This document shows positions 16,919 to 20,487 of a stretch of 20,487 nucleotides of DNA, in pieces. The DNA lies in IMG/VR virus record IMGVR_UViG_3300011114_000047, positions 1-20,487 of that record, one strand, 5' to 3'. This stretch comes from a virus. Within the stretch, counting starts at the first letter, position 1. The number at the start of each line of letters is the position of its first letter. Made by a program: the position numbers and the translations under genes. The notes beneath the pieces were generated by a model. The model did no database searches, was not told the origin of the DNA, and worked only from the letters and a program-made list of their open reading frames with translations.

Positions 16919-17615
16919 CGGCTTCTGATGTTAGTGAGTGCTCACTCTGTTTTAACGGTTCTACGTCCGTTATGTCGGGTTTGATCTCGCCGGAAGTTGC
17001 CTCTACATCGACCACGTTGAGCAGCGTGTCGAGCTTGTCTTGGAGCTTCTTGTCGATCTCGGCGTCGGTCATGTCCGTTTTGGTGACCGATACGCGGTCC
17101 GTGAACAGCGCCACTTCCGTGACCCGGCCCAGCATCTCGATGGCCTTGAGCCGAATCCGAGCGTCTGGGTGGTTGGTCTCCTCAATGATTTTGGCGACCG
17201 CCATTCCGCGCATCTGTTTGGCCTGCTCGACGAATTCCCAGTCATAGGCTGACAGCATGGTGACGAGGTGACGCACTGACTCAGGGGTCTTAAGCAGCGT
17301 CAACTGCGTTTTGGTGTCGTTGGGTGCCGTGTTGTTAGTTAACGCAGCGAAGACGGTACGTGCGGCCTTGGCTTCGGCTTCCTGAAGAATCTTGTTGTCG
17401 TCGTCAACACCAAGCTGCTCTAACCACTTCGTTGTATTGACCTGTGCGTTCAGCGTTTGCTCGGGCGTGGCTTTATCCAGACCGGAAACGTCTTTGCCTG
17501 TGGCCTCTACCACCGGGGGTTCAAAAGAAATCAGATGCTCAAACATGCGCGTAGTACCTTGCGGACTCGGAGCCTGTAATGTACACTGCTTTTTAGGTAG
17601 TGTCTGTGTTTTCAC
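16908..17615 (-). CDS. Putative terminase small subunit
   Basis: 235 residues from GTG at 17613-17615, chosen because a strong GGAGGAG lies 11 bases upstream. A longer frame from ATG 17672 would begin inside a terminator hairpin, and ATG at 17544-17546 (MFEHLISF) is another possibility. The central part is helical: VRHLVTMLSAYDWEFVEQAKQM, KIIEETNHPDARIRLKAIEMLGRVTEVALFTDRV, then an acidic C-terminus with MTDAEIDKKLQDKLDTLLNVVD. No clear helix-turn-helix can be read. The assignment rests on its place directly before the large terminase, with overlapping genes, and on memory of similar genes in environmental phages. Confidence 0.6.
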   Translation of the reverse strand: MKTQTLPKKQCTLQAPSPQGTTRMFEHLISFEPPVVEATGKDVSGLDKATPEQTLNAQVNTTKWLEQLGVDDDNKILQEAEAKAARTVFAALTNNTAPNDTKTQLTLLKTPESVRHLVTMLSAYDWEFVEQAKQMRGMAVAKIIEETNHPDARIRLKAIEMLGRVTEVALFTDRVSVTKTDMTDAEIDKKLQDKLDTLLNVVDVEATSGEIKPDITDVEPLKQSEHSLTSEADEA

Positions 17616-17654
17616 AGTCGTTGCTTCTCCTCCGATGGCTGAAAATCCATCTTT

Positions 17655-17679
17655 GCCCGGTTCGCCGGGCATTTTTTTG
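17655..17679 (+). terminator. Rightward intrinsic terminator with no rightward gene in front
   Basis: GCCCGG-TTCG-CCGGGC (17655-17670) followed by ATTTTTTT. The preceding GATGG..CCATC (17634-17651) could form a second small stem. The element stops rightward transcription, yet every gene to its left is leftward. Confidence 0.75.
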
Positions 17680-17687
17680 TGTGTATT

Positions 17688-17703
17688 TGTCTACTGTTAG
17701 ACA
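17688..17703. promoter_or_regulatory. Inverted repeat TGTCTA-CTGT-TAGACA
   Basis: A perfect 6-base inverted repeat with a 4-base spacer. The half TTAGACA recurs at 17825-17831. This is a possible operator in the divergent control region. Confidence 0.45.
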
Positions 17704-18009
17704 GAATTTAGCTTAATTTTTGCAAAATTTTGTGGGGTATGGGCTAATTTTTGGGTGCCGGGGGGTGTTTCTGTAGGTGCTTTGTTTGCAATTTAAGGCT
17801 AATTTGGGTGTGATTTATGGATGATTAGACAAAAATTGAGATGATGGGAGGGGAATAGTGTTCATGTGGGACGGCCCTAGCTTGCCCTGTATTGCTTGGT
17901 GGGGGGCGGGTGGGGTTCGCCATACCCGTTTACGCCCCTATAGGCGCGCGAATTTACCCCATTCTTACAATAGAGTTAGCGGTTAGGGGGTTCCTAGCCG
18001 CATAACCAA

Positions 18010-18026
18010 CGGGTCACAGTGACCCG
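18010..18026. repeat. 17-bp palindrome P1 (A-centred)
   Basis: CGGGTCAC-A-GTGACCCG, perfect 8-base arms. It lies 19 bases upstream of the first rightward start codon. See P2 to P5 and the related finding. Confidence 0.85.
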
Positions 18027-18045
18027 AACCTAAGAGGTAATTCAA

Positions 18046-18426
18046 ATGTCAACAGGAAACAAAGCACTGGCTTTCCAAACCCTCAACACCTTTGCAGATA
18101 GCAGGGTCGCACTCATCAGGGGGATGCGGGATGCGGGGTACACGTTGGAGACGGCACGCGGTGTCGTCATCGAATGGGCTTGCGGCAAGGTAGGTTCTGG
18201 CATCAAGGGGTTCAAGGTCAACGAGGAGACGGGCAAGGTGTCGCTCATTACGAGCCATGCCAAGTACGAGAAAGCCAAGACCACGGTGCGCGACACCATG
18301 CTGATGCTGGCGGGGACAACCCGCCGCCAGTCCAGTAGCAAGGAGATTGACCTTGTTGCCGAGGCTCTCAAGGCATACGGCAAGCTCAATGCCGCGCAGA
18401 AGCGCAAGTTCTTGGCTTCTGTTTGA
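18046..18426 (+). CDS. Early-region protein of unknown function (126 residues)
   Basis: 126 residues, ATG with GAGGT 7 bases upstream. The protein is basic and helical: NKALAFQTLNTFADSRVALIRGM, then YTLETARGVVIEWACGKVG, and a Lys/Arg-rich C-terminus (LKAYGKLNAAQKRKFLASV). A helix-turn-helix in residues 22-50 is possible but not convincing. It is the first rightward gene, divergent from the structural unit, and is bracketed by two palindromes (18010-18026 and 18433-18449), followed by a likely terminator. This could be a regulatory or DNA-binding protein acting on those palindromes, but nothing in the sequence proves it. Confidence 0.75.
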   Translation: MSTGNKALAFQTLNTFADSRVALIRGMRDAGYTLETARGVVIEWACGKVGSGIKGFKVNEETGKVSLITSHAKYEKAKTTVRDTMLMLAGTTRRQSSSKEIDLVAEALKAYGKLNAAQKRKFLASV

Positions 18427-18432
18427 TTCTTT

Positions 18433-18449
18433 CGGGTCACGGTGACCCG
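18433..18449. repeat. 17-bp palindrome P2 (G-centred)
   Basis: CGGGTCAC-G-GTGACCCG, perfect 8-base arms, beginning 6 bases after the stop codon of the gene at 18046-18426 and ahead of its likely terminator. Confidence 0.85.
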
Positions 18450-18460
18450 TTTTCTGTCCG

Positions 18461-18499
18461 CCGCCCTGCCAATCGGGTTGGGGCGGTATTCTTTTCTTT
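18461..18499 (+). terminator. Likely terminator after the first rightward gene
   Basis: CCGCCC (18461-18466) pairs with GGGCGG (18481-18486), with extra pairing of CAA and TTG inside, followed by T-rich TATTCTTTTCTTT. It lies between palindromes P2 and P3. Confidence 0.6.
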
Positions 18500-18501
18500 G
18501 T

Positions 18502-18518
18502 CTAGTCACTGTGACCCG
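18502..18518. repeat. 17-bp palindrome P3 (T-centred, imperfect)
   Basis: CTAGTCAC-T-GTGACCCG: the right arm is intact and the left arm differs at two bases. It precedes the leader of the two-gene unit 18617-19187. Its right flank AAAACGGT is also found just after P5. Confidence 0.8.
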
Positions 18519-18535
18519 AAAACGGTTCTACCCTG

Positions 18536-18594
18536 AAGCACAGCACGCTGTGCTTTGGAGTGCGACCAGCACGACCGCACCGGACGGTATCCGG
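18536..18594 (+). promoter_or_regulatory. Two-hairpin leader of the 18617 gene
   Basis: AAGCACAG-CACG-CTGTGCTT (18536-18555) and CCGGA-CGGTA-TCCGG (18580-18594) are perfect short stems between P3 and the ribosome site at about 18605. No T-run follows either stem, so they may control mRNA stability or translation. Confidence 0.5.
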
Positions 18595-18616
18595 AATCCT
18601 TAATGGAGATAGCAAT

Positions 18617-18955
18617 ATGTTCAAACTCAACCTGTTTACCCGGCTAACCCACCGCTACGCGGACGGCTGGCGACACCTCGACGACGAGGAATTTACTGGC
18701 ACGGTCAAGGTGCTGGGCATCACACACGAGACCGAGGACGGGGGCTACGATGACGGCGGGACTGCCCGCTTCCGGGTGGTTGCGCCCTCGGCGCTCAAGG
18801 GAGCAGACCTGTCCCAGTCCATACGCCAGACGCTCAGCGGCAGTGGATGCCGTCATGAGTACGACTGCTGCGGCTGCGCCTCGACACGGGCTAGCGTCAA
18901 GCGTGTCAGCCCCAGAGAGTACGCCGTCAAAGTTTCCATCAGCTACAACTACTAG
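18617..18955 (+). CDS. Cys-rich early protein of unknown function (112 residues)
   Basis: 112 residues from ATG at 18617-18619, chosen because GGAG lies 8 bases upstream; the in-frame upstream ATG (18560) lies in a hairpin-rich leader. The N-terminal half has FTGTVKVLGITHETEDGGYDDGGTARFRVVAPSAL. The C-terminal half contains CRHEYDCCGCASTRA, a cluster of four cysteines with a histidine that could bind zinc, then a beta segment YAVKVSISYNY. I recall similar proteins from other proteobacterial phages but no function. It forms a two-gene unit with the next gene and follows a leader with two hairpins. Confidence 0.75.
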   Translation: MFKLNLFTRLTHRYADGWRHLDDEEFTGTVKVLGITHETEDGGYDDGGTARFRVVAPSALKGADLSQSIRQTLSGSGCRHEYDCCGCASTRASVKRVSPREYAVKVSISYNY

Positions 18956-18965
18956 GAGAAATGAA

Positions 18966-19187
18966 ATGAGAAAAGCAACCCGGACAATCGTCCACGTAGG
19001 CACTATCCAAACCCCGTCAGGGGCATGGAATCTGTACGACCAGTACCCCACCAGCAGGCGCGACTTCAAGATAACCTCGGCGGTTCCTGTGGGCAAGCCC
19101 ACGCAGGGTATCGCCTTCACTTGTGACCTCGCCTTCGAGCGCTGGCTGGCTGAGCGCATGACCCCGACTCAACGGGTGTTGTTCTGA
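18966..19187 (+). CDS. Small early protein of unknown function (73 residues)
   Basis: 73 residues from ATG at 18966-18968. The AGGAGA ribosome site overlaps the stop codon of the previous gene (TAGGAGA), so the two are co-translated. A two-codon ATG AAA TGA sits at 18961 between them. The protein is basic with VHVGTIQTPSGAWNLYDQYPTSRRDF, then AVPVGKPTQGIAFTCDLAFERWLAERM. No known motif is recognised. A G-centred palindrome starts 4 bases after the stop codon. Confidence 0.7.
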   Translation: MRKATRTIVHVGTIQTPSGAWNLYDQYPTSRRDFKITSAVPVGKPTQGIAFTCDLAFERWLAERMTPTQRVLF

Positions 19188-19191
19188 AATT

Positions 19192-19208
19192 CGGGTCACG
19201 GTGACCCG
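19192..19208. repeat. 17-bp palindrome P4 (G-centred)
   Basis: CGGGTCAC-G-GTGACCCG, perfect arms, starting 4 bases after the stop codon of the gene at 18966-19187. Its left flank TTC matches that of P2. Confidence 0.85.
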
Positions 19209-19239
19209 CTTGCAGCGCGGAACAACCGAAATGCAAACG

Positions 19240-19305
19240 TGGTATATCAGTCGGGCAAGAAGTGTTGTATAAAAACCACTGTCCGGGGTGTCCACTGATA
19301 TACCA
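19240..19305. repeat. 12-bp perfect inverted repeat TGGTATATCAGT/ACTGATATACCA
   Basis: Arms at 19240-19251 and 19294-19305 with 42 bases between. Related sequences TGGTATTTAAAT (19562-19573) and TGGTATATAG (19614-19623) lie on the other side of the dyad. Confidence 0.75.
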
Positions 19306-19578
19306 GATTCATTTTCAAATACGGACACGCGCAACCCGCATGGATGCTAACGTCTGGGGGTTTAGTGTCCGTACTACTACTAAATATTTTTATTATTATA
19401 TATAGTATAGAGAGTGTATATATTTTTTCTTCCGCGCTTGTTTTCTTTCTTGCTTTTAAGCTTTGGCTAGCTCCTTCTGTATGGCGAACAGTACTTCGGA
19501 CACAAACTTCGAAAAGCTAGTATCCATGCGGGTTGCGCGTGTCCAAAAACGGGAATAGAATTGGTATTTAAATGGACA
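19289..19578. repeat. Large imperfect dyad centred near 19433
   Basis: Core arms 19323-19349 and 19518-19544 match as inverse complements at 26 of 27 positions. Outside them, TGTCC at 19289-19293 and GGACA at 19574-19578 lie exactly 29 bases from each core arm, with partial similarity between. Inside, GTGTCCG (19365-19371) and CGGACAC (19497-19503) also correspond. The centre is AT-rich and not palindromic. Confidence 0.8.
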
Positions 19579-19624
19579 GTTCAAAAAAGCTGGACACTTT
19601 CGTAACCCAACTCTGGTATATAGC

Positions 19625-20464
19625 ATGAAATACCCCAAAAGCTTCTACAGTATGTCGGTCGCTGCCATGCGCAGCTACCTCATAAAACGCAACGTGCCCC
19701 CCGAGCTTATCGATGGGCTAATCACCGAAGAGCAGACCAGACGCGATGAGACGCGCCCCTTGCGCAAGAAGCGTGAGCAGCACATCAGGCTATGGCATCA
19801 GATAATCGACCCGGCTGTGGCCGAGCTACGCAACGTGCAGCATATGCTGCGACTACCCCTGCTGTACCCTACACCTGAACGCACCGCTGCGCTCGAAGCC
19901 TATGCCAAGGTGCTCGAACTGCTCATCGACAAGCTCAAGCAGAACGTGGACAAGATAAAGCGCAGCGATGCCGATACCGCTGACGACCTCCTGACCCCTA
20001 GCAGGCAGGCTAGCAAACCCACACGGGCATTCCCACACGGCAAGCCCAACGGGGGAACGCATTGGGTGGACTACGTGCCGCCCAACATCGTCCGGGAGAT
20101 AAACGCCCTGTTCGACTCGATTCCCCGAGTAAAGGGGGTCAAGCGCAAGTACCCCTTCCTTGTCGTACTTGACCGAGCCACCAGCGCTAAACGTAGGCAA
20201 GCCCTGACCGAGCGTACACAAAACGAGCTGACCCACGTCGAGCGTCTCCTCGCGGTCGAGCTTGCCGATGCTAGGTTGACCGACACCCATGTGTTCAAGC
20301 AGCAGGAGATAGCTGACCTGCGCATCCAGATAAGCAAGATGCAGTACGCCCTGCACATCATCAGCCTGCTGCCCCCGAACGCCTTCATACCCCCGACATG
20401 GCACGGGGTGATGACCCCACGCACAGCACCGGGCGAGTTCCCTATCAACAAAGGGTCACAGTGA
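19625..20464 (+). CDS. Early protein of unknown function (279 residues), next to a dyad element
   Basis: 279 residues, starting with ATG at 19625; no Shine-Dalgarno site is visible and TATATA lies just 2 bases upstream of the ATG, so translation start is uncertain (a later ATG at 19652 also lacks a site). The protein is highly charged and mostly helical, with long helices near residues 38-72, 80-112 and 190-240. The middle has a KPNGGTHWVDYVPPNIVREINALF segment. No enzyme motif is recognised. The stop codon TGA is embedded in the palindrome at 20453-20467. Its place next to the dyad makes an origin- or site-binding role worth testing, but there is no direct evidence. Confidence 0.7.
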   Translation: MKYPKSFYSMSVAAMRSYLIKRNVPPELIDGLITEEQTRRDETRPLRKKREQHIRLWHQIIDPAVAELRNVQHMLRLPLLYPTPERTAALEAYAKVLELLIDKLKQNVDKIKRSDADTADDLLTPSRQASKPTRAFPHGKPNGGTHWVDYVPPNIVREINALFDSIPRVKGVKRKYPFLVVLDRATSAKRRQALTERTQNELTHVERLLAVELADARLTDTHVFKQQEIADLRIQISKMQYALHIISLLPPNAFIPPTWHGVMTPRTAPGEFPINKGSQ

Positions 20465-20468
20465 CCCG
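20453..20468. repeat. Palindrome P5 (A-centred) over a stop codon
   Basis: GGGTCAC-A-GTGACCC with a right-hand G; the outer left base is A instead of C. The TGA stop of the gene at 19625-20464 lies inside it (20462-20464). AAAACGGT follows at 20474-20481, as after P3. Confidence 0.85.
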
Positions 20469-20487
20469 AAACCAAAACGGTCAGCAG

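Follow-up and report, generated by a model that had tools for sequence, protein, structure and literature searches.

A paired-core inverted repeat as the probable, island-type replication origin of an uncultivated freshwater phage

What is the function of a large noncoding dyad at positions 19280 to 19596 of a 20,487-base virus record (IMG/VR record IMGVR_UViG_3300011114_000047; this whole stretch of DNA, as analyzed, is referred to as the window)? An initial annotation, made from the letters alone, had proposed a replication origin with initiator sites and an unwinding region, or else a partition or recombination site. The origin appears to be the best supported of these readings, and the dyad is probably the main replication origin of the phage, with a layout like that of origins in phage-inducible chromosomal islands (PICIs), in which two sets of iterons flank an AT-rich region (PMC6092414). 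The basis of this reading is anatomy, conservation, position, gene content, and homology, from which we infer the origin function, the initiator, and the role of a short core sequence. For an uncultivated group of freshwater phages, it supplies an origin that can be tested.

The dyad is genuine and lies far beyond chance. Two inverted arms, identical at 26 of 27 positions, are separated by 168 nt, and the motif TGTCC or its complement GGACA occurs eight times in 318 nt, four times per side (19280, 19289, 19323, 19366, 19498, 19540, 19574, and 19592). A 61,002-base contig that matches window positions 17601 to 20487 (2,887 bases) at 100% contains this motif at a density of 2.2 per kb, so that about 0.7 copies would be expected in 318 nt. 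In 200 simulated sequences (first-order Markov, window length), the maximum was 5 copies per 318 nt. The features of the locus, in order, are as follows.

19280 to 19596, no strand: putative replication origin (whole dyad), from repeats and motif counts, conserved in relatives
19280 to 19284, plus strand: TGTCC motif, outer left, from a motif search
19289 to 19293, plus strand: TGTCC motif, exactly 29 nt from the left arm
19323 to 19349, plus strand: left arm, 27 nt (GGACACGCGCAACCCGCATGGATGCTA), starting with GGACAC; 26/27 match with the right arm
19331 to 19352, plus strand: left copy of the shared core (GCAACCCGCATGGATGCT...), directed toward the center; matrix score 31.4, compared to 10.7 for the best score in shuffled sequence
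19366 to 19370, plus strand: TGTCC motif (inside GTGTCC), inner left, which together with GGACAC at 19323 brackets the left core
19373 to 19430, no strand: AT-rich center, likely melting region; no other 55-nt stretch of the window is richer in AT (85.5%)
19498 to 19502, minus strand: GGACA motif, inner right, from a motif search
19515 to 19536, minus strand: right copy of the shared core, directed toward the center; matrix score 36.1
19518 to 19544, minus strand: right arm, 27 nt, including the TGTCC motif at 19540 to 19544; 26/27 match with the left arm
19574 to 19578, minus strand: GGACA motif, exactly 29 nt from the right arm
19592 to 19596, minus strand: GGACA motif, outer right, from a motif search
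19625 to 20464, plus strand: gene of unknown function, starting directly after the dyad; a related protein follows the dyad in many relatives

The layout described in the initial annotation was thus confirmed by coordinates, from the spacing of the arms and the 29-base distance of the outer motifs to the eight motif copies, with fewer than one expected, and the very AT-rich center. With repeat finding, each arm grew to 75 nt, at 72% identity (19289 to 19363 and 19504 to 19578). The heart of each arm is the core GCAACCCGCATGRATRCTRG, and each core in the window is bracketed by GGACAC and GTGTCC.

Alignment of relatives, which the initial annotation had proposed as a check, turned out in favor of the element. 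The same noncoding element was present between the same genes in five contigs from a terminase search; the left-arm core GCAACCCGCATGGATGCT was invariant in all six sequences, the center was AT rich throughout, and the right arm drifted. The drift of the right arm is not compensated in the left arm, which is invariant, and a maintained long hairpin between the arms was rejected on these grounds. Scans with a 22-nt matrix of the core revealed paired cores, 168 to 198 nt apart around an AT-rich center, in many relatives and in other phages. Most pairs were convergent; those in L053, L068, L110, and L220 were direct and those in L091, L098, and L227 divergent, with nearly constant spacing across all three arrangements. 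Because the paired core occurs in any orientation at about the same spacing, mirror symmetry is not the constrained feature. The earlier view of the dyad as an old inverted duplication therefore stands in part: one core, under strong constraint, is common to both halves, but the rest of the right arm drifts, and elsewhere the symmetry is not kept. Syntenic relatives lacking the dyad, which the initial annotation had named as the case against it, also exist in part. Relatives with no recognizable core (L016, L021, L022, L024 to L026, L039, and L071) keep an AT-rich center about 2 kb from the terminase gene, and several of them have flanking repeats of their own, such as ACCCAC in 6 to 7 copies. 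A less similar AT-rich stretch lies nearer the terminase gene in L032, L035, and L041. A weak core match inside the terminase gene of L029 was set aside as coincidence.

The genomic position of the dyad is also suggestive of an origin. Terminase, portal, capsid, and SU10-adaptor-like genes occupy the minus strand of the window, small rightward genes begin as a set near 18 kb, and the dyad sits where the leftward structural genes and the rightward early genes meet. The detrended cumulative GC skew of the 61-kb contig reaches its minimum at 20.8 kb (maximum, 40.5 kb), at a distance of 1.3 kb from the element. The core was ≤2.3 kb from the skew minimum in 9 of 12 phage contigs of 54 to 67 kb; G009 and G017 did not fit the pattern.

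The most likely initiator is a 977-amino-acid primase-helicase, which is encoded in the rightward direction at 37514 to 40447 of the 61-kb contig. The remainder of this contig also appears, by eye, to encode a DNA polymerase, a RecB-like nuclease, and an SNF2-like helicase, all rightward. The primase-helicase matches DUF927 and the PHROG DNA primase/helicase family. At E < 0.01, a profile of eight phage homologues matched only two solved structures, namely, 8tch ("Pathogenicity island protein") at E = 1e-21 and 5dgk ("Active helicase") at E = 1e-18. The helicase part of the phage protein resembles these two, which are helicases of staphylococcal islands (SaPI and SCCmec). Invariant N-terminal residues (D81/D83, S115, G116, G118, H120, and R165) look like the motifs of primase-polymerases; solved primases of that class gave only insignificant E-values.

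In the proposed mechanism, the TGTCC/GGACA motifs would be initiator sites, four per side, flanking the AT-rich stretch that melts first. The primase-helicase would bind these repeats, open the center, load itself, and prime. The 20-nt core, which is common to many other mobile elements, lies in the middle of each repeat set, and the paired cores, about 180 nt apart, would probably bind a host factor or another widely shared factor, or act as priming signals once single stranded.

The main rival explanation is that the dyad is a control region. It would contain a promoter driving the rightward gene that begins at 19625, possibly along with a second, divergent one, and the TGTCC motifs would be operators of a phage repressor or activator; its symmetry would stem from duplicated operators and its AT-rich center from promoter DNA. 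Operators typically come as short inverted sites in clusters, the gene at 19625 begins directly after the dyad with a related gene following it in many relatives, and palindromes around the dyad have been taken to show regulation. However, the small genes next to the dyad are directed towards it and no leftward gene begins there, and the paired core and AT-rich center recur in phages with other flanking repeats. Moreover, the core recurs beside plasmid iterons, and an origin may also contain a promoter. We consider this reading unlikely.

The palindrome in question, GGGTCACNGTGACCC, is present at window positions 18011 to 18025, 18434 to 18448, about 18505, 19193 to 19207, and 20453 to 20467 and at 21847 of the 61-kb contig. 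These six copies (one partial) fall within 3.7 kb around the putative origin, none is present elsewhere in the 61-kb contig, and a copy is also present in the relatives L005 and L037. They are probably operator-like sites. A perfect 12-nt inverted repeat (TGGTATATCAGT / ACTGATATACCA; 19240 to 19251 and 19294 to 19305) overlaps the outer dyad, and a third, partial copy (TCTGGTATAT) is located at 19612 to 19621. Searches of the window detected no known RNA in Rfam and no transfer RNA (tRNA). The nearest named relatives by terminase, at about 45 to 52% identity, are phage DSL-LC04, Pelagibacter phages HTVC027P and HTVC023P, and Planktothrix phages; a DNA-level search of named phages with the dyad region gave no match.

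The core extends well beyond this family of phages. The exact 18-mer GCAACCCGCATGGATGCT matched 42 viral and 47 bacterial contigs, compared to roughly 2 and 8 expected from the sizes of the collections, and a relaxed pattern gave many more matches. From 120 nonredundant contexts collected, of which a dozen look like chance or coding matches, the core GCAACCCGCATGRATRCTRG emerged in more than 100 distinct contexts in phages, plasmids, and genomic islands, in most of which it lies in no credible gene. On a 4-kb Escherichia coli MobQ plasmid it precedes rep and is accompanied by four GGTGGAGCTTTTGGGGGTGAAA-type iterons and a DnaA box, and on a Klebsiella phage-plasmid it directly follows a repA-like gene and TATGCTGTCAGCGGT iterons. 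The jumbo phage RaK2 has two cores with GTGTCCCTAATT arms, and further copies are found in the Chaseviridae phage phiEcoM-GJ1, in a Salmonella RepL plasmid, and in the insertion sequence IS66, between tnpB and the transposase gene (the IS66 on JX469829 also has it). At six core loci outside the family of the window, D5/PriCT_2, DUF5906, DUF927, DUF3987/Toprim, or AAA_25 proteins are encoded within a few kilobases. At L325 and L327 (the same place), two cores in direct orientation lie near an AAA_25 helicase gene, and GGACCATGA / TCATGGTCC arms bracket each of them.

Chromosomal copies of the core are rare. In E. coli genomes, 141 of 142 core places are on plasmids; the core was found in 10 of 399 Pseudomonadota genomes (a reversed control pattern in none) and in 3 of 198 Bacteroidota genomes, at least one of these being a coding coincidence. 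A REP-like chromosomal repeat was rejected on account of this near absence from chromosomes, and a CsrA-like RNA site with a GGA loop was rejected because many copies have GAA instead. Matches in Saprospiraceae (L138, L170, L171, L173, and L177) lie in one conserved open frame and were set aside as coincidence.

Two of the functions proposed in the initial annotation lost support. An attachment site, with the arms and TGTCC motifs as arm and core sites of a recombinase, would fit the integrase genes near several of the scanned core loci and the core copies that adjoin tRNA-like sequence (L181, L217, L224, L245, and L254), which look like attachment ends of integrated elements (islands or prophages). 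A partition (centromere-like) site of a phage-plasmid would fit the clustered repeats around an AT-rich stretch and the presence of the core on phage-plasmids. Both are disfavored because no tyrosine integrase or ParB was matched: in the 61-kb contig and eight relatives, Phage_integrase (PF00589) was found in none of the nine contigs (control positive in 14 of 14 genomes; serine recombinases were not searched for), and ParB_N was likewise found in none (control positive in 10 of 14 genomes). In addition, the window has no tRNA, the core also occurs in plasmids and phages without integration, and on the Klebsiella phage-plasmid it adjoins replication iterons. We consider attachment highly improbable and partition, if anything, more improbable still.

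It could also be argued that a small mobile hairpin, the core, was inserted twice, so that the dyad is a residue of insertion rather than a built origin. The core does occur inside unrelated inverted repeats in many elements. In IS66 (L269, 6001 to 6026) it forms a long hairpin with perfect arms between tnpB and the transposase gene, and in two Nitrospira genomes (L156 and L165) it lies in the middle of a unit of about 95 bp with TACTCAG...CTGAGTA inverted ends and differing flanks, which looks like a mini-transposon. However, the fixed spacing of 168 to 198 nt around an AT-rich center in many phages, the strict conservation of the core, and the scarcity or absence of chromosomal copies make this explanation very unlikely. 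At a chromosomal locus of Variovorax and relatives (L131, L135, L136, L140, L141, L152, L162, L163, L166, L172, and L175) the core is found inside inverted TTATCCG-like repeats, with a sulfate-assimilation-like gene near some.

What the core itself does can be suggested only tentatively. It is possible, though we would not put it at even odds, that it is a cis-acting element common to unrelated Gram-negative phages, plasmids, and islands, read by one widely conserved host factor or acting as a universal priming signal. In that view, the initiator repeats around it would be particular to each lineage, and phages would use two copies, about 180 nt apart, on either side of the melting region. Hairpin potential is strong in L265, L266, and L269 (z = −3.4 to −6.3), whereas the two copies in the window fold only weakly (z = −1.9 and −0.5), so that the core may be recognized either as double-stranded DNA or as a hairpin. 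Universal iterons around the core were rejected because only about a quarter of contexts passed a repeat test. The open-access literature yielded no description of the core, the classical literature on single-strand initiation sites (ssi) being largely outside that scope, and it is tentatively regarded as undescribed.

Several observations count against placing the origin at the dyad. No DnaA box (TTATCCACA) was seen on reading positions 19200 to 19660, and the primase-helicase gene is not adjacent, unlike in PICIs. The GC-skew check proposed in the initial annotation was favorable as to distance and confounded as to cause: the gene-strand switch coincides with the skew minimum and could alone explain it. 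Many of the 12 contigs are related, and when they were collapsed to five phage groups the association reached only P = 0.02; in one contig the core is near the skew maximum. A significantly repeated 7-mer was detected near the core in 21 of 88 contexts, and the exact 7-mers of the window failed this test, only its 5-mer passing. The core is also found where no origin is known (IS66 and tRNA-adjacent island ends), and for this reason it does not prove an origin. A replication origin at the dyad is nevertheless the reading we favor. That one 20-nt sequence recurs at the origins and attachment-proximal ends of replicons with no relation to each other points to a host partner in common. In metagenomic contigs of phages and plasmids, this motif could serve as an aid in finding origins.

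Compared to known systems, the dyad resembles the theta-type iteron origins of the 4-kb MobQ Rep_3 plasmids and the Klebsiella phage-plasmids in having lineage-specific iterons and AT-rich DNA adjoining the core. Those plasmids have one core, whereas the dyad has two, and they encode plasmid Rep proteins; the MobQ origin has a DnaA box and none was seen in the dyad. The oriV of RSF1010 may be a further parallel in layout: its iterons and AT-rich stretch are accompanied by two inverted hairpins at which a plasmid primase primes. Short palindromes of the ssi type are located near the origins of diverse replicons, such as pIGRK (PMC6854812). The core is likewise a short palindromic sequence near the origins of diverse replicons, but only part of its copies form a hairpin.

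The closest likeness is to the origins of PICIs and SaPIs. Like these, the dyad has two repeat sets (four TGTCC/GGACA motifs each) around an 85.5% AT center, and the same replicon encodes a candidate primase/helicase initiator homologous to a solved island protein. In the islands the origin is immediately 3′ of the rep gene, whereas the dyad, at about 19.5 to 19.8 kb of the 61-kb contig, is about 18 kb from the primase-helicase gene. The islands are integrative satellites with an integrase, whereas the phage has about 61 kb of DNA, terminase, portal, and capsid genes, and no PF00589 match. The twin cores are a further difference: E. coli PICIs reside in the chromosome, and E. coli chromosomes are nearly free of the core. 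This layout, which has been held to be unique to PICIs (PMC6092414), occurs here together with an island-type helicase in a phage with no integrase match. Taken as a kind, the dyad would be a variant of the island-type origin, and the core its less ordinary part.
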